Source: a virus. From it: a DNA stretch of 64,000 bases. The notes under the pieces were generated by a model that made no database searches, was not told the DNA's origin, and saw nothing but the letters and a program-made list of their open reading frames with translations. A program made the position numbers and the translations under genes. The stretch lies in IMG/VR virus record IMGVR_UViG_3300032236_000879, positions 1 through 64,000 of that record; one strand, written 5' to 3'. The first letter of the stretch is position 1, and every line of letters starts with the position of its first letter. This document shows, piece by piece, positions 2,890 through 44,600 of the stretch.

Positions 2890-4086
2890 CTATTGGAATG
2901 TAAGGTTCTGAACAGCAATTTCCCCAACGTAGTCTGCCGCGTTGCCGAAGCTGCTTGCAGTATTGGTGAGTTCTATGTAGCCATAACGTGTCATGAATGA
3001 AACGACCGGCTCGAAAGTGGTCGGATCAAGGACGACGCCTGAAGACATCAACGGAATGTATGGGCAGTAGAATGCTGCTGCGTCAGTTTCCGATGAACCC
3101 TTATAGCCTACGAGTACTGGCTGAGTGTCTGGTGCGTAGCTGTTTACGAAAACGCGCATTGCACCGTTCAAAGTACCAACGAACTTAGTGTTAGTTGGAG
3201 CTTCGAAAGTACCTTCAGTAGTACGTGCGAAAGCTGAAGTTGTTGCTGACTGAAGAACAGTCAATGAAGCTGGGGATACAACAGCCCAGTTACCTGCACC
3301 ACGACGAGTGCGCTGTGCAATCAAGTTTGCAACGCGGTTGATGAGAACTGCAAGAGCAGCATGTTCGTCACCGACGTAAGTAGCAGTACCTGATACAGTT
3401 GCCTGGTTGTAAGTATACTCAGTTGATGCAAGAGTTGCCAATGAGAGCAAGATTTCCTGATCGATTTCAGCAGTGATTTCTTGTGCGAGAGCAGCCATGA
3501 TTTCTGCTTCAACGTCAATACCATGCTGTGACTGTGCGTCCTGAGCAGCTTCGAAAGTCCAGCGAGCTTGTAGCTTGCGTGACTTGGCTTCTACGGCCTG
3601 ACGAAGGATCTGAACAGAAATCTGCTTACCACCATTGCCTTCAAGAGTTGCAGTGTCAGCACCAGTGTAATAGTTGGTGCTAGTTGCGCCAGCTGGTACA
3701 CGTGAGTATGCCTGTGCGATCTTGAATGGTGAAAGAGCTTCTTCACCAGCATTAACAGAAGTTGCTGCTGCTGAGTTGTCAGTCAATGAGTTAGCATAGC
3801 GAACACGTAGAGTATGAATCTGACCAACTGGGCCAGTCATTGGCTGAATGCCGACGAGTTCGTTTGCAATAACAGTTGGCATAACACGACGAATTACTGG
3901 AAGAATAACGCGATTGAGTGTTGCGATATTACCAGCAGTTGTAGTGCCTGCTGAAGATTCAGCAAGAAGCTGCTTCTTCGTATTTTCAAGTAGAACACCC
4001 ATAGTTGACTTACGAGTGCCCTTTAAGCCTTCTAACAGGGCGTCTTTAGTTTCGTCCCAACGGCTTTCTAAAAGTACTTTTGACAT
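2890..4086 (-). CDS. 23: Major capsid protein gp23
   Basis: A 398-residue T4-type major head protein. After a helical N-terminal region, the sequence AGNIATLNRVILPVIRRVMP followed by NELVGIQPMTGPVGQIHTLRVRYA matches the conserved gp23 core. A gp21 cleavage site of form (L/I)-x-E is visible as LAE ending at residue 43 (LLAE/SSAG), so about 43 residues would be removed at maturation. It is shorter than T4 gp23 (521), mostly through a reduced middle. AGGAG sits before the ATG, and a strong terminator follows. It comes after gp22 with a 27-base gap, the conserved T4 order. Confidence 0.95.
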   Translation of the reverse strand: MSKVLLESRWDETKDALLEGLKGTRKSTMGVLLENTKKQLLAESSAGTTTAGNIATLNRVILPVIRRVMPTVIANELVGIQPMTGPVGQIHTLRVRYANSLTDNSAAATSVNAGEEALSPFKIAQAYSRVPAGATSTNYYTGADTATLEGNGGKQISVQILRQAVEAKSRKLQARWTFEAAQDAQSQHGIDVEAEIMAALAQEITAEIDQEILLSLATLASTEYTYNQATVSGTATYVGDEHAALAVLINRVANLIAQRTRRGAGNWAVVSPASLTVLQSATTSAFARTTEGTFEAPTNTKFVGTLNGAMRVFVNSYAPDTQPVLVGYKGSSETDAAAFYCPYIPLMSSGVVLDPTTFEPVVSFMTRYGYIELTNTASSFGNAADYVGEIAVQNLTFQ

Positions 4087-4113
4087 TTTTATATTCTCCT
4101 AAACTATGTCTAA

Positions 4114-5256
4114 TTAAAGCCCTGCCAGGCGCTTAATATCGATTACATTGTCTTTTTCTGATGAATCGATTTCTTCAAATTTCTTGGCAGATTTATTACC
4201 AGTTGCTTCTACAATAACAGATTCATTCAAAGCCTTCTTTGTTGAAGTAGGTTGAACTGCACCAGTATTAAGAACAGCTGGTAAATATTTGTCGAAAGCA
4301 GCCTGTAACTTTGAGGTTTGGACACTTTCGAGTAAAGTCTTCATTACCTGAGCCTTTTCAGCATTTAGAGTGCTTAGGAGCTTACCTAATTCTCTTTCAC
4401 GCTGAGTTGATTCTTTGATAATTCTAACTTCACGTTCCTTATTTTCAACTAACCTAGCTGTTTGCGTTAGTCTTGCATTAGCTTCAGCGAGTTGACGGTC
4501 TTTTTGAGCAAGTGCTTTCATAATCTTGCGAGTTTCAGCCTTATCGTTTAGATAAGTTACTGAGAATTCACTTGCAAATGATTCGAAAATCTTGCGTCCG
4601 AAATTATTTTCTTTGGCGAGCTTGATATCTTCTTTAAGCTGAAATAGTTCAGCCTTAAGTTGTGATGTGACTGCTGCATTGACTTTCTTAGCACTTTCTG
4701 CAATGAATCTTGCTTTGAGTGCTTCAAGTTGTTTGCGACCTTCTGCGACGAGCTTAACCTTAGCTTCAACAACAGCTTGTCTATCTTGAGCGAACTCTTT
4801 GATTTCACGAGCTAAAGCATGAACAATGAATTGTTCTAGCTTCATGTTGTTTTCCATCTGAAGTTGACGATCGGTGCGTAGCTCTCTGATTTCTTCAGCT
4901 AATTTAGTAACCATGAAATCATTGAACTTTGTAGCGTTTTCACGCAATTTTACTTGTGTTCTAACGCGGTCTTCGTTCATTGCTTTTCTTTCAGCAGCGA
5001 ATTCTTCAATTTCTGCTTTAAGATTTTCTGTCATCATCTTATCAAGGGCTTCTACCATTACGCCACGATCATGTTCGTAACGTTGTGCAAATTCCTCATG
5101 GAGTTCTGCACGGATCTCGTTACGGGCTTCATTTAACTTAGATTGCCAGGCTTCATTTAATTGAACCCCGATATCTTCGTTGATAAGTCCGCTTTCGAGT
5201 AGTGGTTTGATAGCGTCTAGCATTTTATCTAGTCCCTTATTATAATTTGAGTTCAT
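4114..5256 (-). CDS. 22: Prohead core scaffold protein gp22
   Basis: A 380-residue, almost entirely alpha-helical, Glu/Lys/Ala-rich protein with long coiled-coil stretches (for example EIRAELHEEFAQRYEHDRG and LVENKEREVRIIKESTQRE). It sits between gp21 and gp23, the position and composition of the T4 scaffold core protein, which fills the prohead and is digested by gp21. It is longer than T4 gp22 (269). The N-terminus (MLDAIKPLLESGLINEDIGVQ after a short lead-in) matches the usual gp22 opening. The start overlaps the end of gp21 by 17 bases; an internal ATG at MLDAIK would avoid most of the overlap, so the exact start is uncertain. Confidence 0.9.
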   Translation of the reverse strand: MNSNYNKGLDKMLDAIKPLLESGLINEDIGVQLNEAWQSKLNEARNEIRAELHEEFAQRYEHDRGVMVEALDKMMTENLKAEIEEFAAERKAMNEDRVRTQVKLRENATKFNDFMVTKLAEEIRELRTDRQLQMENNMKLEQFIVHALAREIKEFAQDRQAVVEAKVKLVAEGRKQLEALKARFIAESAKKVNAAVTSQLKAELFQLKEDIKLAKENNFGRKIFESFASEFSVTYLNDKAETRKIMKALAQKDRQLAEANARLTQTARLVENKEREVRIIKESTQRERELGKLLSTLNAEKAQVMKTLLESVQTSKLQAAFDKYLPAVLNTGAVQPTSTKKALNESVIVEATGNKSAKKFEEIDSSEKDNVIDIKRLAGL

Positions 5257-8947: not shown

Positions 8948-11900
8948 TCAATATGCATGTTTTAATAACTTCTGTTGGACATGATTGGTGCTTTCTATCT
9001 TGCCAATCACCCGGTCAAATTTATGTGCCATAGATCGAACCATTTCTGTGGTCAATCCCTTATTCTTTGTAGTAGGGGTAGTAGTATAATTAGGATTTGG
9101 TTTTGATACAGATTTTGTTACATTGTGTTGCAATTCATTAATTACAGCATCTTCAGACGTTGAAGCTATTTTAGTTAAGATTGAATTTGAGTCTAACGGA
9201 ATCACTAATTCAGTTCCATGTAATTCTATTGGATAGCCATCATGAGGTCCCTCAAATAAACCACCAACTTTTGCTTTCATAGCACCATCCCGAATCATTG
9301 CAATATCTTCTTGCGCTCTTCTACCGACTTGTTTAGCCCATTTACTACCTTCTAATTGATTAGCCGCTCCATGTAGGTCCCCTGCATCTAATGCTCGCGT
9401 AAAGTTAGGCCATTTTCTATACCAAGCAGGCCCTAAATTGAATGTCATATCAATCAGTGCCCCCTTTCCTCTTTCATTTAATCTATTAAAACCGGGAATA
9501 CCCGATGCAGCCTGAGCATGTCTCGTATAATCTTGTTGGAACATTGCTTTGACTTCATCTTTAGAAAACTCCCTATTATATTGAGGAGGTAGACTATGTC
9601 CATCTCCAATCAAATGTCCGACACCTACTGTCCATAGTCCCAAAGAATCTTTATACGGTCTAGTTCTTACTCCTTCATGTCCGGCAATAGTATCCATGAT
9701 CCAGTTACCGAATGAACCAAATGCACCAGCCACTGCGTTAAATGCACCGGATCCCATTTTACCTAACCAACTTCCAGCAGAACCTATAGCACCAGCTGTT
9801 GCACCTACCACACCACCTGCTATTGCTGCCGCCCCATTTGCCAATCCAGTGAGTGCTTTACCCAAATTACCTGAATCTGCTGAAAGTATACCCATAGCTT
9901 TTGAAAAATTCAAGAATGCTTGGGTATTTTCTGTAACTTTAGGTCCTATATCAATAGCTGCGAATTTTTTAAAACTGTCCAAAGGACCATCTATACTAAA
10001 TAATCTACCGATTGCGGCTCCTGCAATAGTGCTTATTGTATCTTCAAAGCTGCCGGTTCCTTTGAATGATGCCATTGCTTTTGCAAAATAAACAAATGAA
10101 TCTGCATTTGTTTTAACCGCCTTTGAGTCAATTTTTAATCTTGAAAAATTTTCTAAATCTTTATAAGGAGGCTTAGCTCCGAATAACTTACTAATACTAC
10201 CGTATACTCCTTTTACTGCATCTGCAATGGCACGTCCGGCACCCAATGCCGAAATTGCAGCCATTGCTTTTGCATAAGCCATTAGTGAGGCGCCGTTATC
10301 TTCTATCTTTTTCCGATCAAGATTCATTTTTTGCAATCTGTTTAGGAGTTCAGATACTTGTGTTAACGGATCCTTATCACCGGTGAAAAATCTTACTATA
10401 GTTCCCATAGCATTTGACATAGCACCTGCGCCCATAGCAAGTATACCCACTCCTAACCCTGCCATACCTATTCCTGCTTGTTTTAGATTTTCTCCATTAA
10501 TTTCATTAAATGACTTCAATCCTTTAGAAAGAGAAGGCAATGATGCGCCTATTATGTAAACTGCTCCTGCTATGCCAGCACCAAATTCAGCTATCGCAGT
10601 CGCTAGCACACCGGCACCTAAGATTACCTGAGGTGCAGCTTTACCTGCATCAGATAATGCACCTGCAATAGATTTCAAAGATTCAGCGAATCCTTGTTTA
10701 GGGCTTGCATTCACCTGTTCTTTTGATTTTCTACCCATTAACTTTTCAGGCAGCACATTTTCAGATACCATTGCTGCTTCTTCGGCAATCTCTGCCTTTT
10801 CAGCAGTTGGTATATTTTTTCCAAATAATGATGATATGAATTGTTTTCCGGCCTTAGTTGCTCTTGATGCAATTATTGTAGTAAACGCAGCAGTTATAAC
10901 TGTAGCTGTAGTAGCAAACAATGCAAACATTCCAGTATTTCCTAGCAATGGATTCATAGACGCTACTAAATCATCGACTACTTGACCTGCATCAATCTGC
11001 ATTTGAGTCATTTTATTTCTAGCTTGTTGTGCCGGATCAGTAGCTACTGGTCCCTTTTTATTCTTATTATCTTCTATGAGTTTGCGAGCAATATTCCCCT
11101 GAGCCCTAAAATCATCAAGTGATTTATTTAAATTTTCTGTGCTACTTTCTATGTATTGTTGATTAAATCCATACTGTTTTGCAACACCTTCATTAAACGT
11201 TGCCGCAGTTCCCATATTTTGTAGATTTCGTTTATACCCTTGAACCTGTTGATCCATTAATTGTGCACGAGCTTCTCCGATGCCCTTTTCAGCTTCAATA
11301 GATTCATATGATCGATTCATTTGATCTTTCAAAATTTTATCAAGATCAATGTTACGCCTTAGCAGGGTCACACTAGCATTAGTATACATCCCTGTAGCTA
11401 ATTTACTTTGTACTGCTGTTAAATATTCTGCATCATGTGTTTGTTCTGCGGTGTTAAGCAACTGATCTTCAATTGCTAATCGCTTTCTTATTTCATTTTG
11501 CCTTTCTATCTTAGTTTTTGGATCATCCAGTTCTGCTTGTAACCGGGCTTGATGTATTTGAATATCAAAATTAGCTTTAGCCTTCAACATGCCCTTTTTA
11601 GCTTCTTCTGCATTTCTATTTGTGATCGTAGAAATCATAGTAATAGTTTCAGCATATTCTAGTGCATGTTTTTGTGCTACACCTGTTTCTACTGCATTTT
11701 TGTCTAGTATCAATCCAGATTGTGTTTGCAGTTCAACATAGTCGGCCATTCTATCCATAAGTTGTTCTTGGCTAACACCTAAACGCTGGAAGGCTTGCCG
11801 TTGTTCTGCACTAACAGCAAACATTTTTGCAAGCTGTTTTATTCCATTGCCGGTATTTCCACCAAGCGCAATCAAACTAGTTCTAGCATGGTCTGTTGCT

Positions 11901-12478
11901 TTAGTAAAAACCTCAATATTTTGTGAAGTTAAACCTGCATTATGAGCCATATCATATAGGTCTTTAGAAGTGACCTGTCCGACTGCGCCCATATTAGAAA
12001 GAGAATCAACCCCTTTCAATATTCCATCAGCTTGTTTAAATGCTTGTTCAGTTATTTTACTAAGAACAAAAAATGATCCGCCTACTGCCATTCCTAAGGC
12101 ATTGAAACTAGATCCTAATTTAAGAGATGTTTTTCCTAATTGGTTTACAGTGCTACCGTACTTAGTAAACCCGGCTTCGCTGCTTAGAACCGTTTGATAA
12201 AAAGTTTTTGATGCTTCCCACAATCCTTTGAATGCTTCTGCTATATTAGTTGATGCATTTTGTACTGTGTCTGCTGCTTTTTTATCGGCTTCGGTTCGTT
12301 TGTTTATTGCTGCTGTATTGCTATCTTGAGCATTAATACCTGCCCGTTTGATAATTGTATCTTTTTCAGCAACTCCGGTTACAACTGCTACTTGATCAAC
12401 CACACCTACTAGATTACCAGTGAAACTTGTGATAGTGTCTGCTAGTTGTGCTAATTCTAATTGTAAATTTTGGTCCAC
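8948..12478 (-). CDS. Tape-measure-like protein with T4-type lysozyme domain
   Basis: A 1,176-residue protein, GTG start with GGAAG upstream. Residues ~1-900 are helical, Ala/Gly-rich with hydrophobic segments (near 530, 640 and 690), as in tail tape measure proteins. Near 925-1065 lies a GH24 lysozyme: GHEGVRTRPYKDSLGLWTVG has Glu935, Asp944 and Thr950 with spacing 9 and 6, identical to T4 lysozyme Glu11-Asp20-Thr26. A C-terminal helix follows. It is a paralogue of the neighbour at 12494 over most of its length (for example LKGVDSLSNMGAVGQ/LKGIDDLSEIGAAGQ and QRLGVSQEQLM/QRLGVSQEELM). Likely part of the tail that digests peptidoglycan during injection. Which paralogue sets tail length is unknown. 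Confidence 0.8.
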   Translation of the reverse strand: MDQNLQLELAQLADTITSFTGNLVGVVDQVAVVTGVAEKDTIIKRAGINAQDSNTAAINKRTEADKKAADTVQNASTNIAEAFKGLWEASKTFYQTVLSSEAGFTKYGSTVNQLGKTSLKLGSSFNALGMAVGGSFFVLSKITEQAFKQADGILKGVDSLSNMGAVGQVTSKDLYDMAHNAGLTSQNIEVFTKATDHARTSLIALGGNTGNGIKQLAKMFAVSAEQRQAFQRLGVSQEQLMDRMADYVELQTQSGLILDKNAVETGVAQKHALEYAETITMISTITNRNAEEAKKGMLKAKANFDIQIHQARLQAELDDPKTKIERQNEIRKRLAIEDQLLNTAEQTHDAEYLTAVQSKLATGMYTNASVTLLRRNIDLDKILKDQMNRSYESIEAEKGIGEARAQLMDQQVQGYKRNLQNMGTAATFNEGVAKQYGFNQQYIESSTENLNKSLDDFRAQGNIARKLIEDNKNKKGPVATDPAQQARNKMTQMQIDAGQVVDDLVASMNPLLGNTGMFALFATTATVITAAFTTIIASRATKAGKQFISSLFGKNIPTAEKAEIAEEAAMVSENVLPEKLMGRKSKEQVNASPKQGFAESLKSIAGALSDAGKAAPQVILGAGVLATAIAEFGAGIAGAVYIIGASLPSLSKGLKSFNEINGENLKQAGIGMAGLGVGILAMGAGAMSNAMGTIVRFFTGDKDPLTQVSELLNRLQKMNLDRKKIEDNGASLMAYAKAMAAISALGAGRAIADAVKGVYGSISKLFGAKPPYKDLENFSRLKIDSKAVKTNADSFVYFAKAMASFKGTGSFEDTISTIAGAAIGRLFSIDGPLDSFKKFAAIDIGPKVTENTQAFLNFSKAMGILSADSGNLGKALTGLANGAAAIAGGVVGATAGAIGSAGSWLGKMGSGAFNAVAGAFGSFGNWIMDTIAGHEGVRTRPYKDSLGLWTVGVGHLIGDGHSLPPQYNREFSKDEVKAMFQQDYTRHAQAASGIPGFNRLNERGKGALIDMTFNLGPAWYRKWPNFTRALDAGDLHGAANQLEGSKWAKQVGRRAQEDIAMIRDGAMKAKVGGLFEGPHDGYPIELHGTELVIPLDSNSILTKIASTSEDAVINELQHNVTKSVSKPNPNYTTTPTTKNKGLTTEMVRSMAHKFDRVIGKIESTNHVQQKLLKHAY

Positions 12479-12493
12479 TGTTAATCTTCCGTG

Positions 12494-15400
12494 TTATGAC
12501 ATTGAATATTTCAGAATTTTAGATTGGGTATTATGACTATTATCTAGTGCAGTAAGAACATGATCTAATTTGTGATTTATCATATTGTACAATTCTAAAT
12601 TTAACATCCCTTGATCTTCTGGAACCAGCTGCGTATGCTCAGTCAATGCGTTCATTGTTTTGATCTGATTCAGAGATTCTACATTAGTCCTTGCTAATTT
12701 CATTAATAAAGAATCTAGTTTAAGAGGAGCTAATTTTTTTCCGGTAGGCATTGAAGGAACACCCGGTTCATCTACTGTATTGCTAAAAATACCACCGTCT
12801 CTAGCTTTCATAGTAGCTGCTCTTTTAAGCCAAGCCGGAGTAGAAGCAGCAGTATAATCTGCTCCCCATAATGTTAATTGCGGATGTGAATCATCGATGT
12901 GAATATGATTTCCTTCACCGCCTATGCCAGTAAATCCTGCTCGTATTGCAGATTGTACGACGGCAGTTTGATCTCCGGTTATTCCTAGATCAAGTGCCCT
13001 TTTAACTACGTGTGGATTATTCTTGCCGCTTATTGTACCCTTAGGTGTTATCCACCCTTCAGGTCTTGCACCACTTGTAACATATATGGATTTATTACCC
13101 AATGCACCTTGTACTTTACCAAACTTTTGTAACGTATTGGGGTCAACACCTTCAGTCTTACCTATAAATCTGTTATAGATTGATTTACCAAATTCTATTG
13201 CACTTTGGGACAGTGAGCCGGTTGCTCCGATAATCGACCCTGCCGCGCTTGCTCCGCTTTTTCCTCCAGATTGGAAACTCTGTGCAATACCGCCAAAAAA
13301 TCCTCCTCCGGATGCATTTTCTCCACCACCTGCAGGTTTTTCTCCGCTATTAGGTAAAGAATTATTTCCTCCTCCGGATTTAGCAGCTAGCATATTAGCT
13401 GATTGTGCATACTTATAAAAGGCATCAGCGTTGTCTTTAGCTTTAGAACCAAAATCCATTTTTGCAAATTTACCAAATGCTTCGACTGGACCGTCACCGC
13501 CAAATATCTTATTAAATCCTGCTCCTGCTAAGGAACTTATAGTATCTATTAATCCGGGTCCGCCCTTATAAGCAGACATCGCATTAGCAAATGCAATAAA
13601 TGCAGTAGAGTTTGAATTTGCTTTCCCTGCATCGATCTTGAGATTAGAAAAGTAAGTAAATTGATCAATCGGCGGTTTCCCACCAAAGAATTTTGAGATT
13701 CCTCCTGCTATTGCTCCTCCTGCTTCTGCAAGTGTACCTAATGTCCCTAATGAAGAAGTAGCAGCCATAGCTTTAGCAAAAGCAACCAATGCATCTGAAT
13801 TGTTTTGAACTTTTGTTTTGTCAAAATTGAATTGTTGAAGTTCAATAACTTGGGTTGAAACTTTTTGTATAGGATTAGTATTGCCGGTAAAGAATTGCAT
13901 GATATTACCGACTGCACCTACTATTTGGCCGCTGCCCATAGCAAGTATTCCTGCTCCTAATCCCGCCATTCCAATACCAACTTGTTTAAGATTAGGACCA
14001 TTCAACTTATCAAATGCTTTTAATCCATTTGCAAGAGACGGCATTGCTTTTCCCATAACCCAAGTTGCACCTGCTAAGCCTGCACCAATCGCAGTAATCG
14101 CAGCTCCAATTGCACCTGCACCTAAAACTATGTAAGCCGGAGTAGGGGGTTTACCTGCTAGAGCAAGACCTTCTACGATTCCCTTCAAGAACCCACCTGC
14201 TACGCCGCCACCTGAATTCGCTGCCTTATTAAGATTCTGCAAGCCTACATCTGCTGCGCCGTTTGCAGCTTTTCCGACAAGCGCCTTTTCACCTTCTTGC
14301 ACAGCTTCTGTGGTTATTTTTTTTCTACCTAGTATTCCCATTAGACCGCCGCCCGAACCGCCTAGCATTCCCATCAAACCACCTGTAATACCGGATGTGC
14401 CGCCGCCTCCTTTTTTACCCCTAAACAGTATGGCTGCTGTCAATATCGCAGCAACACCTGTAGCAGCAACTGCAAGAGCTTTTAATGCACCTGTATTTCC
14501 TAATAAAGGATTCATTGACTTTACCAAATCATCCACAGTTTGTCCTGCATAAATCTCCATATTAGTCAAGTTATTTCTAGCAACTTGTGCAGGATCTTGG
14601 TCCGTTTGGGCATTTGTCGTGCCGTCTTCAGGATTGCCTGTTTTTTCTCTAGCTAATCTATATCTTTCTTTAGTTTGCTCTAGTGTTTCTTTTCCTAATT
14701 TTGCTGCATTAATTTGCATCTCTGAACTTTGTAGGGTCCCTTCAGCAAAGTCTTTGTTAAAAGTCGCAACTGTTCCTAAATTTTTATTATTTCTTTTAGT
14801 TGCCTCAGCAAGTTCATGTGTTAATCCTGCAGTGATATCACCGGCTAATTTTTGTTTTCTAAGTTCTTCTATACTAAGTTTATTGGCTTCTGCGTCAATT
14901 TTTTCCTCATTGACTCCTGCCCTCAATAACACGCTACTAAGAGGTCCATATGCTCCGGTTGCAAGTTTTTCTTGATAAGCTGCTAATATTCTTGGGTCTT
15001 TTGTTGCGGCTGCTGCTGTTAATTTTTGATTTTCAATTAACAGTTGTCTCTCTGCTGCTTCTCGTTGTGCTTTGGGTAGACTTTCATCATCCATTTGTGC
15101 TTGGAGTTTAGCCTGATGTATCTGAATATTAGTTGCAGCATGGGCTCTTTCTTGATCAGCTTGTGCTTCTTTTGCATTTTGTGAAGTGGCTGCAGCAATT
15201 ACCGATAAATCTTTAGCATACTCTAAAGATAGTCTTTGTAATGTTCCGTCAGCTATATCTTTTTTGCTGATCGCCATACCAGATTTAAGCTGCAACTGAA
15301 TGTAATCAGTCTGACGCTGCATCAATTCTTCTTGACTTACACCCAAACGCTGAAAAGCATTACGTTGTTTGGTCGTTACTGAAACTAAATTTCCTAATTC

Positions 15401-16054
15401 TTTGATGCCATCTCCGGCGGTAAGACCCAAAGAAATTAAGCTACCACTAAGGGTGTTAGCTGTTTTTGTAAATATCTGAAGATTATGTGAATTGAGTCCC
15501 ATTCGGTGACCCATTTTATACATCTCATCAGATGTTATTTGTCCAGCAGCACCGATCTCAGATAGATCGTCAATTCCTTTTAAAAGTCCATCAGCTTGTT
15601 TAAATCCTGCTTCTGTTGCTTTACCGATAGCAAAACTTAATCCACCTAGTAGTTTACCAAATATACCAAAGTTTTTTCCAACATTCCATGCAGCTTCACC
15701 TAAACTACTAACTGTACTTCCGTACTTCTCAAATCCTGCTTGATTACTTAAAACTGCTTTAGAGAAGCTATCTAATGCCGATCTTGCCCCGTTGAATCCT
15801 TTTTGAAGGTTGCCAGATACTTCTTTTATTGTTTCTGCTGCTTTTTTATCAGTTTCTTCCTTCTTAGAAATACCGGCAGTACTATCATTATTGGCAGTAG
15901 TGTTTCGTGTAGTTGAAGTTTTATTCTGTTCATTGGCTTTATTTAATTCATCAAAAGATTTTATAACTTTAGACAAAGCAGTAGTTTGGCTAACCAATAC
16001 TCTATTAAGCTCGGTTATAGATTGCTGTAATTCTAAAATTTCTTCAGGATCCAT
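12494..16054 (-). CDS. Tape-measure-like protein with M15-type peptidase domain
   Basis: A 1,186-residue paralogue of the protein at 8948, with the same helical, hydrophobic tape-measure character through residue ~900. The inserted catalytic domain differs: about residues 960-1070 read VTSGARPEGW, then NPHVVKRALDLG with His1015 and Asp1022, then GNHIHIDDSH with His1050/His1052, the layout of zinc D-Ala-D-Ala carboxypeptidase or endopeptidase (M15-like) domains. The C-terminal ~60 residues again resemble the paralogue (HKLDHVLTALDNSHNTQSKILKYS/HKFDRVIGKIESTNHVQQKLLK). A Gly/Ser-rich linker precedes the enzyme. Only 15 bases separate the two genes. It probably crosses the periplasm and cuts peptide stems while its twin cuts glycan. 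Confidence 0.8.
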   Translation of the reverse strand: MDPEEILELQQSITELNRVLVSQTTALSKVIKSFDELNKANEQNKTSTTRNTTANNDSTAGISKKEETDKKAAETIKEVSGNLQKGFNGARSALDSFSKAVLSNQAGFEKYGSTVSSLGEAAWNVGKNFGIFGKLLGGLSFAIGKATEAGFKQADGLLKGIDDLSEIGAAGQITSDEMYKMGHRMGLNSHNLQIFTKTANTLSGSLISLGLTAGDGIKELGNLVSVTTKQRNAFQRLGVSQEELMQRQTDYIQLQLKSGMAISKKDIADGTLQRLSLEYAKDLSVIAAATSQNAKEAQADQERAHAATNIQIHQAKLQAQMDDESLPKAQREAAERQLLIENQKLTAAAATKDPRILAAYQEKLATGAYGPLSSVLLRAGVNEEKIDAEANKLSIEELRKQKLAGDITAGLTHELAEATKRNNKNLGTVATFNKDFAEGTLQSSEMQINAAKLGKETLEQTKERYRLAREKTGNPEDGTTNAQTDQDPAQVARNNLTNMEIYAGQTVDDLVKSMNPLLGNTGALKALAVAATGVAAILTAAILFRGKKGGGGTSGITGGLMGMLGGSGGGLMGILGRKKITTEAVQEGEKALVGKAANGAADVGLQNLNKAANSGGGVAGGFLKGIVEGLALAGKPPTPAYIVLGAGAIGAAITAIGAGLAGATWVMGKAMPSLANGLKAFDKLNGPNLKQVGIGMAGLGAGILAMGSGQIVGAVGNIMQFFTGNTNPIQKVSTQVIELQQFNFDKTKVQNNSDALVAFAKAMAATSSLGTLGTLAEAGGAIAGGISKFFGGKPPIDQFTYFSNLKIDAGKANSNSTAFIAFANAMSAYKGGPGLIDTISSLAGAGFNKIFGGDGPVEAFGKFAKMDFGSKAKDNADAFYKYAQSANMLAAKSGGGNNSLPNSGEKPAGGGENASGGGFFGGIAQSFQSGGKSGASAAGSIIGATGSLSQSAIEFGKSIYNRFIGKTEGVDPNTLQKFGKVQGALGNKSIYVTSGARPEGWITPKGTISGKNNPHVVKRALDLGITGDQTAVVQSAIRAGFTGIGGEGNHIHIDDSHPQLTLWGADYTAASTPAWLKRAATMKARDGGIFSNTVDEPGVPSMPTGKKLAPLKLDSLLMKLARTNVESLNQIKTMNALTEHTQLVPEDQGMLNLELYNMINHKLDHVLTALDNSHNTQSKILKYSMS

Positions 16055-16157: not shown

Positions 16158-16985
16158 ATGGATAACAACCCATTAAAGCAGTATTTCAGAAGACCATCAG
16201 TTTACATGAAATTGCCGTCACAAGGTCAAGGATATCCGGTAGGAGCACTAGACCTACCGGTAACAGGAGAAATTCCAGTTTACCCTATGACAGCAATCGA
16301 CGAGATTACTACTAGAACTCCTGACGCTTTATTTAACGGTACTGCAATTGCAGACTTGATAGCTAGCTGTTTGCCTAATATTAAGGATCCTTGGGCAGTT
16401 CCTAATGTTGATCTTGATGCTATTTTGGTTGCAATTAAAGCAGCATCTTCTCCTTCAGGTGAAATGGATTTAGATACAGCATGTCCTAATTGCAATGAAG
16501 TATCTACATATAAAGTGAATCTTTCAGCCATACTCACTTCAATTGCTAGCCCGGATTTTTCTAAAGAATTAGAAATGGGTGAACTCAGGGTGAAGTTGAA
16601 GGCAGTCAGTTTTAAGGACATAAACACTGCATCTATCAAACAATTTGAATTCCAAAAAATAGCTACCCAGATCGAATCGATAGAAGATGATACACAGCGT
16701 AACAAATTATTAAAAGAATCATTGGAGAAGGTAACTGAACTCACAATGGAGTTAGTATGTCATGCAATTGAATATATTCAAACACCAAACGTGAAGGTAG
16801 ATCAAAAAGAATATATTCTTGAATTCTTAAGGCAGTGTGATCGTAATGTATATGTCACTATTAGAGACCGCAGTTCAGAATTACGTCAGGTGAGCGAAAT
16901 TAAACCAGTAAATATCACATGCGATAGTTGCCAGCACCAGTACGAACAATCAATCACACTAAATCCAACGGATTTTTTCGACTAA
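16158..16985 (+). CDS. 26: Baseplate hub/tail assembly protein gp26
   Basis: A 275-residue gp26-family protein. The N-terminus NPLKQYFRRPSVYMKLPSQG and the following LPVTGEIPVYPMTAIDEI with PDALFNG are the family's conserved opening. Two CxxC pairs (CPNC near residue 113 and CDSC near 256) suggest a zinc ribbon. T4 gp26 (208 residues) is needed to assemble the hub/tape-measure complex. AAGAGGAACT precedes the ATG. Its last codons lie on a slippery heptamer followed by a hairpin (separate entry), so part of translation should shift to -1 and continue 76 residues. The divergent neighbours are the tape-measure genes, its likely partners. Confidence 0.85.
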   Translation: MDNNPLKQYFRRPSVYMKLPSQGQGYPVGALDLPVTGEIPVYPMTAIDEITTRTPDALFNGTAIADLIASCLPNIKDPWAVPNVDLDAILVAIKAASSPSGEMDLDTACPNCNEVSTYKVNLSAILTSIASPDFSKELEMGELRVKLKAVSFKDINTASIKQFEFQKIATQIESIEDDTQRNKLLKESLEKVTELTMELVCHAIEYIQTPNVKVDQKEYILEFLRQCDRNVYVTIRDRSSELRQVSEIKPVNITCDSCQHQYEQSITLNPTDFFD

Positions 16986-17020
16986 CGCTTCTTAAATCTG
17001 TGCCCGAACAGATTAAGAAG
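16973..17020 (+). promoter_or_regulatory. Programmed -1 ribosomal frameshift signal
   Basis: The heptamer T TTT TTC (16973-16979) is in the gp26 frame (GAT TTT TTC GAC TAA). After an 8-base spacer comes a 12-bp hairpin: CTTCTTA (16988-16994), one bulged A, ATCTG (16996-17000), 8-base loop, CAGAT (17009-17013), TAAGAAG (17014-17020). This matches the slippery site, spacer and stem plan of -1 frameshifting. The zero-frame stop sits right after the slip site. Confidence 0.85.
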
Positions 17021-17209
17021 CTGATTGATTCATACGAAGAAGAGGTTGATTCTATCAAGAAATCATCATTGGAAATGGCCTGGCACATGAGGGGCGGTGC
17101 TACATATGAAGATATTTTGAACATGTCTTTTCAAGAAAGACTAAGCATCAATAAGATGATAGAAGAACATCTAGAGATCACAAAAAAATCACAGATGCCA
17201 TATTTCTAG
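16979..17209 (+). CDS. 51: gp51-like extension read by -1 frameshift from gp26
   Basis: An open -1 frame after the slip at 16979 adds 76 residues (RLTLLKSVPEQIKKLIDSY... ending TKKSQMPYF), giving a gp26 fusion of about 350 residues. The part LEMAWHMRGGATYEDILNMS followed by INKMIEEHLEITKK is a conserved small tail-assembly module in T4-like phages, located where T4 has gene 51. There is no ATG near the start and no Shine-Dalgarno site; alternatives are TTG 16928 or GTG 17000, both poor. The arrangement mirrors lambda G/GT tail chaperones, in which the shifted product recruits other tail parts. The gp51 equivalence is inferred from position. Confidence 0.7.
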   Translation, partial: RLTLLKSVPEQIKKLIDSYEEEVDSIKKSSLEMAWHMRGGATYEDILNMSFQERLSINKMIEEHLEITKKSQMPYF

Positions 17210-17212
17210 TGA

Positions 17213-17245
17213 GGGGAACTATTCATTTAGTTCTCCTTACTTTTT
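17213..17245 (+). terminator. Rho-independent terminator after gp26/gp51 operon
   Basis: Four bases after the TAG, GGGGAACTA (17213-17221) pairs with TAGTTCTCC (17228-17236), 9 bp with one G-U, loop TTCATT, followed by TTACTTTTT. It ends the plus-strand operon. Confidence 0.75.
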
Positions 17246-17249
17246 GTTC

Positions 17250-17759
17250 TCATTGGGAGTTGTCCTTCAGACAACTTATACCTCACTCACTCCGTTCGTT
17301 TCGGTATATTCTTTTTCATTCTCTATAAAGGTAACTCGTCATTTAATCTTTTCTTTAAACCAATTGCCGGTTTAGAGCCATGGTAGTGCTATTCAGCACT
17401 ACCAATGGTTTAGGACACTGCCATGGCCCGTCACCTTTGCCGTCTATCCCCCGTCAATCTAGCTTTTTGTGCTGATTGACGCCACCGGTTGCCCTGTAAA
17501 GTTCGCTGGGGCTGTAGTGAGGCTATCTTTCGATTCCTCGGCAACGCATGTTCTGTGACTTCAAGACAGAATAGATCACAGACTCATTCAGGGTTCGTCT
17601 ACCTAACGAGAGCCCTGTCGGTATTCCGTAGACTGTTACATCCACGCACTTTGAAGGAATGCACCTTCGACTCCAGAATCCGTTCGCAGTGTTTCATGCG
17701 TTCTCAAGGAGAGTCGAGCTACCCCGACCAAACAGCTATGTAGGGTTCTGTGGGTTTTA
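17250..17759 (-). ncRNA. Candidate large structured RNA, ~510 nt, no protein gene
   Basis: No credible coding frame spans this stretch, and it is visibly richer in G+C than its surroundings. It holds many perfect inverted repeats: AGTTGTC 17258-17264/17270-17276; TGGTAGTGCT 17381-17390/AGCACTACCA 17395-17404 (10 bp, 4-base loop); CGTCAATC 17452-17459/17474-17481 plus inner AGC/GCT; GTTGCC 17488-17493/17540-17545 enclosing GAGG-ATC/GAT-CCTC 17519-17539; TCTGTGA 17552-17558/17576-17582; CAGGG+TTCGT 17589-17598/ACGAG+CCCTG 17606-17617; TCGACTC 17667-17673/17711-17717. Loop CTAC 17599-17602 can pair with GTAG 17628-17631, a possible pseudoknot. Read on minus, loops become GAAA, ACAAAAA and TGAAG, typical RNA loops, so minus is favoured. 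It would follow the nuclease gene at 17760. Strand and ends are uncertain. Confidence 0.6.
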
Positions 17760-18323
17760 TTAAGTGTTGATTGTTAGTACGTTTGCGCTAGACTTGGTGT
17801 CAATATGTGTACTAGATGAGCCAGAATAGACTTTAAGAAGGTCTTTGTTGAGCTTAAAGAAGTGATCAAATTCAATAATAACCCAGTCCCCTAACTTAGC
17901 GGAACTGTAATAGACAAAGTTGTCCGTAACCCAAGTGCATCGTGTTTGCACAGCAACGTACTTGCCCTTGCGGTTGAACTTCATGAATAGGATGTTGCAG
18001 TCATCATCTTCTGCTACATCCATCAGTTGTCCTAACCAAGATTCAAGTTGCTTGCAATCGCCTGACAACAGCAGATGAAAGGGGAAGTCACCATATGACT
18101 TACACTCTGCATTAAACTTAGTAAAGGTTTGTCCAGGAACGATATCGCCTTTGAAACTACGAACCTGTCCCTCATGCAAATACTGCTTGCGAGCTTGATT
18201 CTTTCCTCCCACATAAGCGCCTGAGCCAGGAGCCCTGATGAAACTCTCTTTGTAGAGATCAGAGAGGTACTTTGCGACCTCTCTTTCGAACGATGAACCT
18301 TTGGCTTTACTTGGTGACGGCAT
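17760..18323 (-). CDS. PD-(D/E)XK-type nuclease, resolvase-like
   Basis: A 187-residue protein. It opens KAKGSSFEREVAKYLSDLY, the helix with an acidic residue typical of this nuclease fold, followed by FKGDIVPG (Asp near residue 60) and FNAECKSYG (Glu-x-Lys near residue 73), giving the D...E-x-K metal-binding core. The N-terminal Ser/Lys-rich segment and GSGAYVGGKN may bind DNA. Family members resolve or cut branched DNA; a Holliday-junction role next to gp46/gp47 would make sense but is inferred. The ATG follows a GATAAATT box overlapping the stop of the HNH gene upstream. The candidate structured RNA begins at its stop codon. Confidence 0.65.
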   Translation of the reverse strand: MPSPSKAKGSSFEREVAKYLSDLYKESFIRAPGSGAYVGGKNQARKQYLHEGQVRSFKGDIVPGQTFTKFNAECKSYGDFPFHLLLSGDCKQLESWLGQLMDVAEDDDCNILFMKFNRKGKYVAVQTRCTWVTDNFVYYSSAKLGDWVIIEFDHFFKLNKDLLKVYSGSSSTHIDTKSSANVLTINT

Positions 18324-35663: not shown

Positions 35664-38600
35664 ATGGCTAGAATTAGAACACTTAATTTTCTTCCAGAGG
35701 TTTTTCAAACTCCTCCTAACGCTCAGTTTTTGGCAGCGACATTAGATCAACTCGTAAATTCTCCCAACGTCGCTAACGTTCAAGGTTATGTGGGAAGTAA
35801 GTTTGGCACCGGCGTCAATGCTACAGATGCTTATGTGCCCGAACCTACTAAAGCTCGTGTTGACTATCAGTTAGATCCTGCAGTGGTCTTCACCAAACCA
35901 AACGAAACGACTGCAAATGATTTTGTGACTTATCCTGGAATCCTTGATGCTATTAAATTAGCAGGAGGAATCACAGATGATAACAGCAAGTTGTTCACTA
36001 GCCAATTTTATTCATGGGATTCATTCACTAACTTAGATCCATTGATTAATTTCAATCAGTACTATTGGCTACCGGATGGTCCTCCTGCAGTAACAGTTGC
36101 AGCTTCTACTATATTCTCCAAAGAAGCCTTTGTTGTAACTAGTAATACCAATTCATATAGTATTGTAAGAGAAGGTTCTACTACTTCAAATGCTAATCCT
36201 CCGATCACCTTATTGAGAGGAGGTACATATACTTTTGCAGTCAATCAGAATACCCGATTCTGGATTCAAGGGGCTCCGGGCATATCAGGTTATAGTCCAA
36301 CCCAGCCTAATCAACCGGTTCGTGATGTTTATGGTGTAACGAATAACGGAGTAGAAACTGGATTTGTGACATTCGAAGTTCCGCTGAAGAATGCACAGGA
36401 TGAATTTAATTTTCCAAATACTGTGAATGTCGATGTGATCAGTACTACATCATTTGATAACATCAATGGTCAGTTCGTTAATTCATTTGCAGGCATCGAC
36501 GGTATCACATCACTATTAGGATTGACTGTTGCATTCTACAACACGCCGCAAGAAATCGCATACATCTCTTCCTACTACGGTGAGACCTCGTATGATACAA
36601 ACGATCCTGCGTTAGTTCCTCCGGCTACGCTTTCTATTGCTAGCTGTAATACGAGCGCATTCACCCTTGCATCAGGAAATACTAGTGGTTTGGTTGTAGG
36701 TGGTACTGTAACTTTCACGGGAACAGTATTCGGTGGAGTCAATCCTGGTCAAGTTTATTTTATCAATAGCATTCCTAGCTCTAATTCATTCACTATCGCA
36801 ACTTCATTGAATGGTCCGACCCTAACCCTGACTGCTGCATCAGGCAGCATGACTGCAAACGTCAATCAGGGCTTGTATGAAGATGGATATAATGCAAACA
36901 TTAATACAACATTCTTCACTGTAACCTATATCGGTGATCCTACTAATCCAATCATTCGACTAGTACCGTCAGGTGCGATTCCGTCAAACACGAAGATCGT
37001 GCCCGTATATGGAGTAGAGTGGAACAATAGACCATTCTATCTAGATGTTGCCAACAATCTAGAATTGATTCCTTATATTAGTGCTCCGCTTGATGTTCTT
37101 TACTATCAGGATGGAACTGATCCTAATAAAGTGGGAACTATTCACCTAATCGAAAGCAATCTTAATAATACTATCGACGTTGATCTACAGATCCTAGGTA
37201 AAAAGAATTATACTGCTCCAAATGGGGTTGTATTCACTAATGGGTTGAAAGTAGAATTTGACGGCGACGTTATTCCTACAAGTTATCTGACTGGACAATA
37301 CTATGTTCAGGGTGTAGGTACAGCCATCGAATTAGTAAATGTAGAGACTCTCGTTGTTCCGGAAAAGTTCAGTGAAGGTGAATATATCGCATGGGATGTA
37401 ACAAGCTGGGATATCGGAAATTATGACATCAGCCTTGACATTCCAGTGCTTGCTGATTATATTGTAATTGCGCGTAATGCAATCAGCAAGAATGCATGGG
37501 CACGAAGCAATCGTTGGTTCCATATTGATGTGATCAATGCAACTGCAAAATATAATAATGATCCTACTATTGTCACAACGTATGCAACTGCTGCCAATAA
37601 AGCAGCAAGACCTATTATTGAATTCTATCCGAATCTAAAACTGTTTGATTCTGGTGCTACTGGTGTAAATCCAGTAGACTTTATTGATACTACCAATACT
37701 GATGCGCTCTCGACTGTTCCCGGATCAGTCGCATATTATCCGGATGTTCAAGTGTATTCGACTGCATCTGCTACTATTACTGCTAGCCCTACGACTCCTG
37801 TCTCTGCCGGTTCATTCGTTGTAGGAAACACCTACCAAATCAGTACATATGGTACAACGACTGACTGGAATGCGATTGCTGGAACTTCATATCAAAACTA
37901 CGCAGTAGGAAGCAGATTTGTGTGCGTGAATGCGGGTTCTGGTAATGGTTTTGCAGTACCATTGGCAACATCAACTACTATCACAGTTGCAGCAAGTGCA
38001 CTTAATGGTACACTTGCTGATTATATGTTTATTGCTGACTCTACTGGTATATTACCTGCTAATTCACAGATCACTAATATTTCAGGAACAACTACATTAA
38101 CATTGACAGTAACTTGGGCAATTCCTCAGAATGTTGTCGGAGCATCAGGCGTAATTCTATATGCGAGTGATACTACTGTCAATAACTACGGACTATTTCC
38201 GGGCGCTCGTGTTATCTTTGCAGGAGATAGTGATCCTAACGTAAGAAATAAAATCTATGTTTCTAATTTCTCTGTGATCGCACCTTCTACTACACCAACC
38301 ATTACTTTGATTGTAGCAGAAGATGGTATAATCGGACCAGACACACAAACAGTAATAACCCGGGGTTATACAAATGCTGGATTGAGTTACTGGTTTGATG
38401 GCTTATATTGGAATCAAGCACAGCAGAAAGTATATTTGAACCAAGCTCCAAAGTTTGATGTATTTGATGCGAACGGTGTAAGCTTCGGAGATAGCACAGT
38501 ATATCCTAGCACGACTTTTGCAGGCTCTAAGTTATTTGCTTACGGTCTAGGGACAGGAACTAAAGACCCTGTTTTAGGGTTCCCGATTCGTTATAGTTCA

Positions 38601-41600
38601 GTATCTAACCTAGGGGATATCAGCTTTGATGTCTCGCTAAATTCTGATACGTTTAACTACGTCTATAATAGTAATCCAGTAACACAAAAAGTAAACACCG
38701 GATATGTTTATAATTATACCAATGCAGCGACTTACAAGAGATTGTTAGGTTGGGAAACTGCAATCGCGCCTAGCCAGCAGTATCAGATTCTGGAGTTTAA
38801 TTTTGTTCCAGGAACCACACAAACATCTAATCAGTTCTTGTGTGATATTGCACCTCTTGCTCCTTTGGGGCCACATGAAACTGGTTGGCCAAGAGTCAAG
38901 GTGTACATCAATAATGAATACCAAGATACAAATACATACACCTATACAACAACTGATACTACCACTACTGTAATACTCAATACTCTTCCTACAGTAAAAA
39001 CTGTGATTCAGATTTTGATTCTAAGTGATCAAGTGAGCAAGGCAGGTTATTATCAGATTCCGTTGAATCTAAGCAACAATCCATTCAACACTGACTTGAC
39101 AGTTGTTAATACAGGTGATATTAGAACACAGTATCAAGATATCTTTATCAATTCTCCTATCGTTACAGGAACTATTTTCGGTACAAATAACTTCAGAGAT
39201 TGCGGTGATCTAGTACCTTATGGCACTAAGATCATTCAGAACAGTGCTTCACTTGTGTTGCCTGGAATGTCCCTACGTAATCCGCAATATAATCTATTCA
39301 ATGCTCTGCAATTTAACTCTAATGAATACATCAAGTACAAGCAATTGATCGTAGACACTGTGCAGAACACAGATTATGTTCAGCGATATACTCCTTCACA
39401 AATTTTGGATGATGCGATCTCACAGATTGCCGCAGCTAAAAGTGAAGTAAATGCATTCTTCTGGTCAGACATGCTACCAAATCAGAATTCATATATTAGC
39501 AATACATATGTCTTTAATAATGATTTGGATAGATCACAGTATCCATTGAGTCATGTATATAATTTCGAGAGTGCAAATTATAATGGTGTTCTAGTTTATT
39601 TGACCCGTAATATCGGTGGAATCCTTGCTGAAAGACAATTGATTACTGGTGTCGAATATGTCATTAGTACTGATTCACCCACGTTGACCATCACTATTCC
39701 AATGTTGCAAGGTGACAATGTAACAATCAAAGAATATAATCAGACTTATGGTTCTTATGTACCAAATACTCCAACTAAGTTAGGTATATATCCTAAGTTT
39801 ATTCCGGGAGTTGTACTTGATCCGAATTACACGATCCCTACTTACTTCATTCAAGGTCATGACGGATCATATACCAAACTATACGGTGATTATATTCCTG
39901 AAGCTAATGTACTAGTTGATTTCAGAGATCAGGCACTATTGGAATTTGAACAGAGAGTCTATAACAACCTCAAGTTAAGCACAGAGACACCTATCAAGCG
40001 TTATGAAGTTGTTCCTGGATTCTTTAGGACTTCAACATATACTTGGGATCAGTATCTACAAATCTATTCGACTCAGTTTCTAAATTGGATCGGTCAGAAT
40101 CGAATCGATTATAAGACACAGTACTTCTCACGAGTAAATGAGTTCACTTACAACTATACTAATTCTACAAGTAAAGTAGACAATAATCCTATCGTCCAGG
40201 GATACTGGAGAGGACTATACGAATACTACTATGATACTACTACTCCAAACACTACTCCATGGGAGATGTTAGGATTTGAGATCATGCCAGATTGGTGGAC
40301 CTCTCGCTACGGTCCCGCTCCGTATACGAGTGATAACGGAATCCTCTGGGGCGACCTAGAGCAGGGACTAGTATGGAATAACGGTGAACCTTATATCAAT
40401 CCTCTCGTAGCTCGACCTGGCTTATCAAAGATCATTCCAGTTGACTCTAATGGAAATCTACTCTCTCCTTATAAAGTGATCGTAGGTAATTATAATCCAA
40501 GCACATTCAATAAAGATTGGAAAGTCGGTGATGATGCTCCTGCTGAATTGAGCTATCGTCGTAGTTCAACTTATCCGTTCGACTTGACTAGAATCTTTGC
40601 ACTAACCCGTCCTGCTGAATTCTACAATCTCTGTGTTGATCTGGATCACTACAAATATAATGTAGAGTTCAATCAGTATCTTGTTGATGATAGAAGCCAT
40701 CTAGTCCCAGCAAATATCCAAGTATACGGTAATGGTATAGCAAAGACCAGCTATCTAAACTGGATCGTTGATTTTGAAAAGCAACAAGGAATTGATTCTA
40801 CTACTGAATTAACAACATCACTCAATAACCTAGATGTAAGACTAGTATATCGTCTTGCTGGTTATAGTGATAAGTCATTGCTTCAGTTTTATGTTGAAAA
40901 ACCATCACCTAGCAGTACCAACGCATCACTGTTGATTCCAAATGAAAGCTATGCTATTCTACTATATGATAACCAAGCATTTGATCGCATCATGTTTAGC
41001 GGTGTCATTGTTCAGCAGAATGATTCATACTGGACAGTATATGGTAACTCACAGACTAATGCGTACTTCCAGATACTTGATCCAAACTTCAATGGAAATT
41101 GGACAACACTAACTACTGAAAATATATCAGTGAAGGTAGCACAATCATACAGCACTAATGTTTCTCTAGTGCCATATGGTACTAAGTTCTACAGCACACA
41201 AGACTTAGCACAATTCCTGATCTCATACGGTAAATATCTAGAATCAAAAGGAATGGTTTTTGATGCAATCGAAAATGGAATTCATGTCACTTGGCAACAG
41301 ATGGTGTATGAATATCTATACTGGGTTCAGACAGGATGGTCAATCGGAAGTATAATCACATTGAATCCTGCTGCAACAACAATGGATATCAATCAGCCGA
41401 GTGCCATCGTTCAACCATTGACGATCCAACAGCAGAATTTTGTGTTGAATCAAAATCTATATCCTATCAAGCTCAACGATCTCTGCATCAATCGTGATGG
41501 TACATTGCTTCATATGCACACGTTGAATGCAGGAGATACTATGGCTTATGCACAGTTCAACTTGAGCAATTTTGAACATGGTATCGTGTTTGATAACTAT

Positions 41601-44600
41601 ACCCTATTCAATGACACCATCTATAATTTGATAACCGGACTTTATCAGAATAGAATCTTTGTTCGAGGACAAAAGACTGCTGAATGGAACGGAACGGTCA
41701 ATGCTTGGGGATTCATTCTAAATCAGACTGATATTCACGAATTCAATTCTTTCACGAAATATACTAAGGGTGAGATTGTAAAATACAAAAATAAGTATTG
41801 GACTTCATTAACCATCATTGAACCATCCGGCGTCTTTGATGAGACAAAGTGGAAGCAGATCAATTACAGCAAGATTCAGCAAGGAATGTTTGCTAACCCA
41901 AGCACTCGTGCATATGAAAGCACGTTGTATTATGATGCACAGAAGGCTAATCTACACCAAGATGCTGATTTGTTATCCTTCTCATTGATCGGCTATCGTC
42001 CGCGTGATTATCTCGCACTCATTGACTTGACTGATACTGCACAAGTTCAAGTCTACAAGAACATGATTAGAAATAAAGGTACGCTCAATGCATTGAATGC
42101 ATTCAAGGGAGCTAACCTTCCACAGGGCGGAATTCAGTACGACATTTATGAGAACTGGTCTATTCTAACAGGCACATACGGCGGTGTGCTAAATGAAAAT
42201 TTTGTAGATTTCAGGCTTCAACAAGCAGACATGACAGGTGATCCTGCAATTGTCAGCCTAACCAACGGTAACGGTACAGCAGGAACGATGCAAGAAGTGT
42301 CGATATATGATCTATACAACTATGGCACGGAGATCACTTCACCTGACATTCTTAGTACTACAACAGCAACACCTACACAGATTCTATATCCTAGTGCAGG
42401 ATACGTCAACTTCAATGATGTCAAGATGTCAACATATTTCTATTCGGGATTGCCTACCGCAACAGATATAAATGGCAAGATCATTCCTATTCAGAATTTC
42501 TATGTCGGTGAATTCATCTGGATGGCAAACTTCAAAGAGAAGTGGGGCGTCTTTAGATGGAAGCCTATCGGTCAAGTAACCCAGGTCAGAAATAATCAAA
42601 ACCAAACAGCAACAGTCACGTTCAACACTCCGCACGGATTGAGCAAGTTAGATCCAATGGCAATCATCAACTTTGCTACATCGGTTGACGGGTACTATAT
42701 CGTGACTGACGTTGTTAATTTATATGAAGTCATCATTAATCTATCAATCGTTGGTGCTAATCAGACAACTGTTCAAGGGCGTGGGCTGGGCTTCGCATTC
42801 GAATCACAGCGTGTTGCGACTCCAAGTGAGATTGAAACACTTAATTTAACTGAGAATGAATTCATCAAGAACCTAGTGTGGGTAGATGAAAATAATGACG
42901 GTGGTTGGGCAGTCTATGAGAAGAGCATCAATTACCTATATCAAAATCAATTACAGCTTCCAGAATCTACTACATATGGTTCCGCAGTCGCATACACTGA
43001 TACATCAGGATATCTCGTAGGGGATGCGGGCGCTAACCGTGTTTATCGATATTCTTATAACAATGTATCCGGTCAATCGACACTCACTCAAACTGTTGTA
43101 CCATACGGTGGATCCATTGCTACCTCATTCGGATCAAATATCGCATATGCTAAGAATATCTATGTGATCGGTGCTAATGGTCCAGGTGAAGATGACATTG
43201 GTAATTTTATCTATGTAATAAATGATAGCATCATTTCAACTGATATGCTAAAATATCAGAATGATTACATCTATGCGTCAGCCGCTGACATCGCAATGTC
43301 AGATGATGCTAATTGGCTATATGTGTCTGATATTGCAAATGGGCTTGTTTTAGCATATCGCAGAGATAACATCACATTTAATGCAGGGTATTTCACTTCA
43401 GGTGAAACTTACATTATCGATAGTTTAGGCACTACTGATTTTACTGCTATTGGTGCTATACAAAACAAAGTTGGAATTGCATTTATTGCAACTGGTCCTG
43501 GTACAGGAACAGGTGTCGCAACACAAGCATCATACAAGCTAGCGCACATCATCAACTGTGCTGATTTGGGACTGACTGCTGATAGTAAATTCGGTAATTC
43601 TCTATCAACCAACTATGATGGTAGTGTTCTGATGATAGGTGCTCCTGATGTAGCTGATACTAGTCCGGTTCTTGCTAACTGGGGTGCGGCATATGTTTAT
43701 CAGCGAGCAGTACAAACATTTGAAGCTCAGTATTCGAGCGTTCCTTATCAACCGTTCGCATTTAATCTAGCCTGGACACCCCAGACAAACACATTCCTTC
43801 CTCCGCAGACATTGACTTCGACTACTGTTATTGGAAATTACATTTATGTTAATGATGCAACTTATCTTAGAATAAACATGCCTGTCATGTTCATCGCTGG
43901 AAGTGCAGGTGCTGGATTAAATAATAGCGGAATCAATCCATACGTCACTTATTATATTGCAGATATTATAGAAAACACAATTGCATTAAAGACCTCACGT
44001 TCAACTAGCACTATTGTTAGCTTGATTGATGGTACAATCACATGCACTATGTATCCGCAATATGATGTGAACGGAAGCACTAGGGTTTATGTTTCTGTTA
44101 ACGGCAAAGTGGTTCAAGATAACAACTATGCATTAGCCGGAAGTACTCTGTACTATACAGGTAATTTACAAGTAGGTGACATTGTTAACGTTAGTGGTAC
44201 TGATTTCTTTATGGCGCAAGAATTTAATTCTGAGTACAACAATAGACCTGATGTATATTTTGGTACTTCTGTTGCAGTCACAAAGTATGGATCAACTGTT
44301 CTTGTAGGTTCACCGTATGAAATCGATACAGACGGTAAAGAAGGTGCAGTATATAGTTATACAAACGGCGGTGCAAAATATGGTCTAGTGATCGGTACAT
44401 CACCTTGTAATATCACATCTGCTAGAACATTATTAATTAATGGGTTTGCAGTATACTTACCTATCGGAAATGCCGCTGTAGTGGCAAATGCGATAAATGG
44501 TTCAAATATTAATAATATACAAGCAGCCGCAACTGCTGATAATAAGATCATGATTCAGCTTATTAATAGTTCTCTGGCAGGAGTTGATAACAAATTGTTA

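Follow-up and report, generated by a model that had tools for sequence, protein, structure and literature searches.

We propose, at a probability of roughly 90%, that a gp26-like locus of the DNA analysed here is a tail assembly chaperone (TAC) gene that makes a short protein, TAC-N, and an extended form, TAC-NC, by −1 frameshifting. The window, by which we mean the whole stretch of 64,000 nucleotides, belongs to an 83-kb virus fragment. On the T4-like genes that PHROGs recognised in it, encoding a major head protein, a head maturation protease, a portal, gp46/47-like nuclease subunits, a late sigma factor and a baseplate wedge, the phage is an uncultured giant T4-like phage. No close match turned up when 12 kb were compared with phage records by megablast, and no tRNA or tmRNA was found in the window. 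The baseplate wedge genes are followed by one open reading frame of 6500 codons (35664–55166, plus strand).

In the proposed mechanism, most ribosomes would stop at 16983 and release the 275-residue TAC-N. Others, fewer in number, would pause at the hairpin that follows, slip back by one base on T TTT TTC and yield the 350-residue TAC-NC, with a 76-residue helical tail (TAC-C) read from the −1 frame. By analogy with lambda gpG/gpGT, TAC-N would coat the tape measure protein or proteins, the TAC-C extension would recruit tail-tube subunits, and neither form would stay in the virion.

Table 1. Features of the chaperone locus and its surroundings, in window coordinates
Feature	Position	Strand	Evidence
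Tape-measure-like protein 2, 1176 aa, C-terminal phage lysozyme domain	8948–12478	−	PF00959, E 2.5e-15; putative role
Tape-measure-like protein 1, 1186 aa, divergent neighbour of the chaperone gene	12494–16054	−	35% identical to the next gene; PHROG peptidase match only at E 0.012; putative role
TAC-N, 275 aa, short form of the gp26-like tail assembly chaperone	16158–16985	+	PF12322, E 4e-16; PHROG_150, E 1e-16
Slippery heptamer T TTT TTC	16973–16979	+	56/56 non-redundant relatives; 106/106 loci picked by the downstream RNA
TAC-C extension in the −1 frame, 76 codons (16979–17206) plus stop TAG	16979–17209	+	pN/pS 0.15; resembles the end of T4 gp51
Zero-frame stop TAA	16983–16985	+	Sequence
Putative stimulatory stem-loop, 14 bp, one bulge, 6-nt loop	16987–17021	+	z −4.9; compensatory changes; beats synonymous recodings
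Terminator-like hairpin with T-run, just after TAC-C	17208–17241	+	Consensus match alone (one, against 0.6 expected in shuffles)
Conserved structured RNA core, element of about 400 nt	17355–17745	+	Covariation; conserved noncoding DNA at about 17211–17760

The slip site and its conservation

The gp26-like frame ends in the codons GAT TTT TTC GAC TAA, with the heptamer in its phase and 10 nt before the stop. The site has the X XXY YYZ form of a −1 frameshifted chaperone of the lambda G/GT kind and lies, as in such genes, just before the zero-frame stop. Codon-phase TTTTTTC occurs in 2 of the 29 window genes tested, and the copy in the other gene is 919 nt from its stop. Past the slip, the −1 frame remains open for exactly 76 codons with no ATG near the junction, and neither the GTG at 17000 nor the TTG at 16928 in that frame has a Shine-Dalgarno-like site. 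The first-pass annotation had reported the heptamer in the gp26 frame, the stop just beyond it and a −1 frame of 76 codons lacking an ATG, and on all of these it was accurate. Its spacer of 8 bases was not, since the hairpin starts 7 nt past the heptamer; its hairpin of 12 bp with one bulge stood except for the length, the minimum-energy fold having 14 bp, a single 1-nt bulge and a 6-nt loop.

Relatives were gathered by protein similarity (77 from IMG/VR, together with Atu_ph07, 121Q and PA5oct), and removal of duplicates and cut loci left 56 non-redundant relatives, with the window counted among them. Aligning the junction in relatives and looking for a conserved heptamer had been suggested as a check, and TTTTTTC is indeed present in the same codon phase in all 56, at 10 nt from the stop in 51, 19 nt in four and 16 nt in one. 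The distance from the slip to the −1 stop is exactly 78 codons in 53 of the 56. All of the 61 conserved gp26 columns show synonymous change except the two slip Phe codons, TTT followed by TTC. A sample assembled independently of the protein, consisting of at least 120 contigs selected solely for a DNA pattern of the downstream RNA and overlapping in part with the 56 relatives, gave the same picture: the heptamer was present in 106 of the 106 loci with a readable TAC-N end. In-phase TTTTTTC is found in Atu_ph07, 121Q and PA5oct and also, among nine phage records beyond the 56, in RaK2, GAP32, CBB, Phosso, Vibrio 2.275, XaC1 and Hallingskeid, while the remaining two, XacN1 and RAS14, have TTTTTTT in phase instead. 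A reading of the junction as a sequencing error or a pseudogene was ruled out by the recurrence of the layout in the 56 non-redundant relatives.

The −1 frame is coding and under purifying selection, with a pN/pS of 0.15 over 14 related pairs and 85, 38 and 233 changes at codon positions 1, 2 and 3, respectively (233 of 356 at the third). It is therefore an open, selected frame, and in the window it has no start of its own. Another possibility would be that it constitutes a separate small gene, read from a weak start codon of its own or by re-initiation after the gp26 stop. Separate small coding sequences are annotated there in 121Q, Phosso, GAP32, CBB, XaC1 and Atu_ph07, and an ATG lies at or just after the zero-frame stop in 121Q, Atu_ph07, L008 and L027. 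However, ATG, GTG and TTG are absent near the junction in the −1 frame of most relatives. The conserved protein begins at the slip itself, with FFR in 55 of the 56 relatives, and its alignment (FFR...WHMRGG...ER...) runs on from there, upstream of every possible start, leaving no room for a separate one. Moreover, no site of the gp26-like gene other than the heptamer is synonymously frozen, and gp51, the probable T4 counterpart, is one fused protein. We thus regard a separate gene as improbable, and frameshifting as the better account of the −1 frame.

The downstream hairpin has a free energy of −17.9 kcal/mol (z = −4.9); none of 200 dinucleotide shuffles folded as well, and of 1,066 tiles across the window only 0.8% did. 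Compared with synonymous recodings of the same peptide, the stem has a mean z of −2.4, falling below −2 in 33 of the 56 relatives, and 5.68 of its 7 lower pairs are kept, against 4.20 ± 0.11 in the recoded controls. Stem cells with compensatory changes outnumber those in shuffles, although the lower stem taken alone shows no such excess in the number of pairs that vary. Part of this conservation is driven by the protein, because the arms of the stem also encode conserved residues. Near the window, nonetheless, the stem is selected beyond its codons, as the suggested search for compensating changes had anticipated; in distant phages it is weak or absent. Such a downstream structure accordingly accompanies the heptamer in the window and its near relatives, not in all distant members, and is missing or unrecognisable in L003, L049, L052 and L070. 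The stem would therefore be a lineage-specific enhancer, and the heptamer is universal.

The long product might instead arise from slippage of RNA polymerase on the T6 run. The homopolymer of six T, extended to seven in XacN1 and RAS14, would suit such an origin. On the other hand, the run is kept as T6C in one codon phase, a selected RNA stem lies downstream at ribosomal spacing, and transcript slippage in bacteria usually requires longer runs, which together make this origin highly improbable. We infer that it is the ribosome that slips here, and that only a minority of ribosomes do so.

The chaperone family, its neighbours and a +1 sister branch

TAC-N scores 59.7 bits against PF12322, for which the cut-off is 24.5, and this places it in the family. 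Its AlphaFold2 model is a confident mixed fold (pLDDT 86.5), for which Foldseek returned 'baseplate hub assembly' proteins of T4-like viruses (E 2e-24), with Aeromonas gp26 among the matches. A fold search of the PDB with the same model gave no match below E 0.001, and thus ties no solved chaperone fold to TAC-N. The AlphaFold2 model of TAC-C is all-helical. TAC-N also has two CxxC pairs (window residues 109, 112, 255 and 258), conserved in more than 90% of 31 aligned sequences, which suggests metal binding by the chaperone.

PF12322 covers residues 1 to about 200 of T4 gp26 and of T4 gp51 alike; a C-terminal extension of about 48 residues is present in gp51 alone. The TAC-N/TAC-C fusion aligns with gp51 through to its C-terminus. 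TAC-C by itself, compared with gp51 residues 221–249, reached a profile score of 21.8 against a maximum of 17.7 in 60 shuffles, a modest margin for a match that is colinear to the C-terminus. A single-sequence search did not find gp51 with TAC-C, and when the −1 domain was searched against PHROGs, only 3 of 16 members had a match, to a family of unknown function. By these comparisons, the first 200 or so residues of T4 gp26 and gp51 are paralogous, and the −1 frame probably corresponds only to the last 48 or so residues of gp51. The first-pass annotation, which had gp26 joined to a gp51-like frame, was therefore inexact about the second part, gp51 itself being a gp26 paralogue with an extension.

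The chaperone gene adjoins two tape-measure-like genes and diverges from them; it is not upstream of them. These tandem paralogues are 35% identical and differ at their C-terminal ends, one having the lysozyme domain and the other a possible peptidase. Matches suggest two such copies in G001–G004 and G010, and fewer in G005, G006 and G008. The homologue occupies the position of lambda G/T in Flavobacterium phage immuto, Listeria phage LIS04 and Bacillus phage SP-15: on one side of it is a tail-tube or tail-completion gene, and on the other the tape measure or a putative tail protein.

This synteny bears on whether the frameshift product could be a structural protein of the baseplate hub rather than a tape-measure chaperone. 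The label 'baseplate hub' is attached to gp26 in databases, and a T4 review cites genetic evidence for gp26 in the hub (PMC3004832). The same review, however, classes both gp26 and gp51 among the hub assembly chaperones, with gp51 absent from the final particle (PMC3004832), and the gene order in the Flavobacterium, Listeria and Bacillus phages is that of G/T. A structural hub role is thus unlikely, if less so than the other alternatives. The earlier suggestion that gp26 and the gp26-51 product form a G/GT-like pair near the tape-measure genes gains support, in that a tail assembly chaperone would fit all of the sequence evidence.

A sister branch would reach the same domain by a +1 shift. In LR756508 (L107) the +1 frame that holds TAC-C follows TTT CTA, and in most of its viral relatives (L109–L118, L120–L123, L125 and L126) it follows a conserved TTT TGG, the putative +1 site of L109–L118 reading TTC TTT TGG. 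We rejected LR756508 as an exception lacking a slip site, because it belongs to the +1 branch. The +1 frame has a pN/pS of 0.09, and a start codon at the junction is often absent; in L119 and L124 a separate start seems to take the place of the shift. TAC-C is also in the +1 frame in Microcystis phage Mel-JY01, Flavobacterium phage immuto, Listeria phage LIS04, Streptomyces phage BRock, Bacillus phage SP-15 and Streptococcus phage GXN1. A profile comparison of the −1 and +1 domains scored 34.7, against a shuffled maximum of 17.4, indicating that the two are homologous. The direction of the shift would thus differ between the branches. With a −1 branch, a +1 branch and T4 with its fixed separate genes, the evolution of recoding becomes testable within one protein family.

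A structured RNA behind the chaperone gene

The noncoding DNA at 17211–17760, downstream of TAC-C, folds with a z of −4.8 on either strand and matches the corresponding region of many relatives at about 68–84% identity. We rejected it as coding sequence, finding it not coding in any frame. In a 32-sequence alignment of its core (A7; window 17355–17745), 51 pairs were recognised, with 94.7% of cells paired and double compensatory changes in 29 of the 51. Double changes occur in 246 cells; shuffles give 75 ± 7, and sliding the alignment gives no more than 36. The core forms about 10 helices, has long invariant stretches, and is closed by a helix whose arms are some 370 alignment columns apart. 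RNAalifold energies did not distinguish the strand of the RNA.

The DNA pattern of this RNA was found in at least 120 contigs of uncultured phages (loci L136 onward), and in none of 84,980 bacterial and archaeal genomes. The RNA is downstream of TAC-C on the same strand in 108 of the 108 loci with enough upstream DNA, usually 68–239 nt away. Of the 56 relatives, 35 were found to have it, and no distant one was. The Rfam 15 covariance models gave no match at E up to 1 for the window stretch, and in five relatives only chance, unrelated matches; a limited literature search found no paper on such a phage RNA. It very probably represents an undescribed class of large structured RNA, confined to one clade of giant T4-like phages and fixed in place behind the chaperone gene.

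Between the chaperone frame and the RNA lies a terminator-like hairpin, a consensus match of a kind expected 0.6 times in shuffles, and in L018 an open reading frame of 247 codons is inserted there (4058–4801). TAC-C and the RNA are far apart, with a long gap, in L017, L033 and L071 as well. The arrangement suggests that the RNA does not merely belong to the chaperone message and, because of the separating hairpin and the inserted frame, our first guess is a separately made RNA. Such an RNA would matter more than the frameshift, given that few large structured RNAs restricted to phages are known to us and that its strong covariation can guide experiments.

Comparison with known systems

A study by Vladimirov and colleagues in 2022 reportedly found frameshifting conserved in several T4-like groups, with T4 using the separate genes 26 and 51. 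Two later papers (PMC10885494, PMC12846349) credit this study (Vladimirov, Gautam and Davidson 2022, Virology 566:9-15) with identifying the T4-like tail assembly chaperones, which are of the same protein family as the window protein (gp26, PF12322). The PRFect paper describes some T4-like phages as doing without frameshifting, with a short gene alongside a separate, longer fusion gene (PMC10885494), and the paper on phage Adele treats poly-T slippery sequences in T4-like TAC-N genes as known (PMC12846349). As far as these sources tell, Vladimirov et al. 2022 had already put forward a frameshifted chaperone for T4-like phages, and the window adds another case. In public records, the chaperone extension is missed, truncated or entered as a separate hypothetical protein in 121Q, RaK2, GAP32, CBB, XaC1, XacN1, Phosso, Atu_ph07, PA5oct and Vibrio 2.275. 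Giant T4-like phages would appear to use slippage for tail assembly, with a TAC-C domain overlooked from 121Q to RaK2.

In T4, gp26 is the counterpart of TAC-N and gp51 probably that of TAC-NC. The separateness of the T4 genes, which the first-pass annotation had pointed out, is borne out: they are two paralogous genes on opposite strands, where the window has one gene with a proposed frameshift. The contrast is not new in view of Vladimirov et al. 2022, and a 2016 review had given T4 as the exception to G-T frameshifting (PMC5009743). T4 gene 26 has neither a T6 run nor a TAC-C frame after it, and the window has both.

Lambda gpG/gpGT, as proposed here for the window gene, comprises a short and a −1-extended chaperone made from one gene near the tape measure (PMC5009743). 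The window differs from lambda in its T TTT TTC site, in the strong stem of its near relatives and in the divergence of the gene from the tape-measure-like genes; we do not claim sequence homology to lambda. The Pseudomonas phage Adele and its relatives (Vandenendeviridae) also resemble the window, having a myovirus TAC with an invariant poly-T slip motif and an open −1 frame (PMC12846349). Their motif, however, is GTTTTT, and their locus lies directly upstream of the tape measure.
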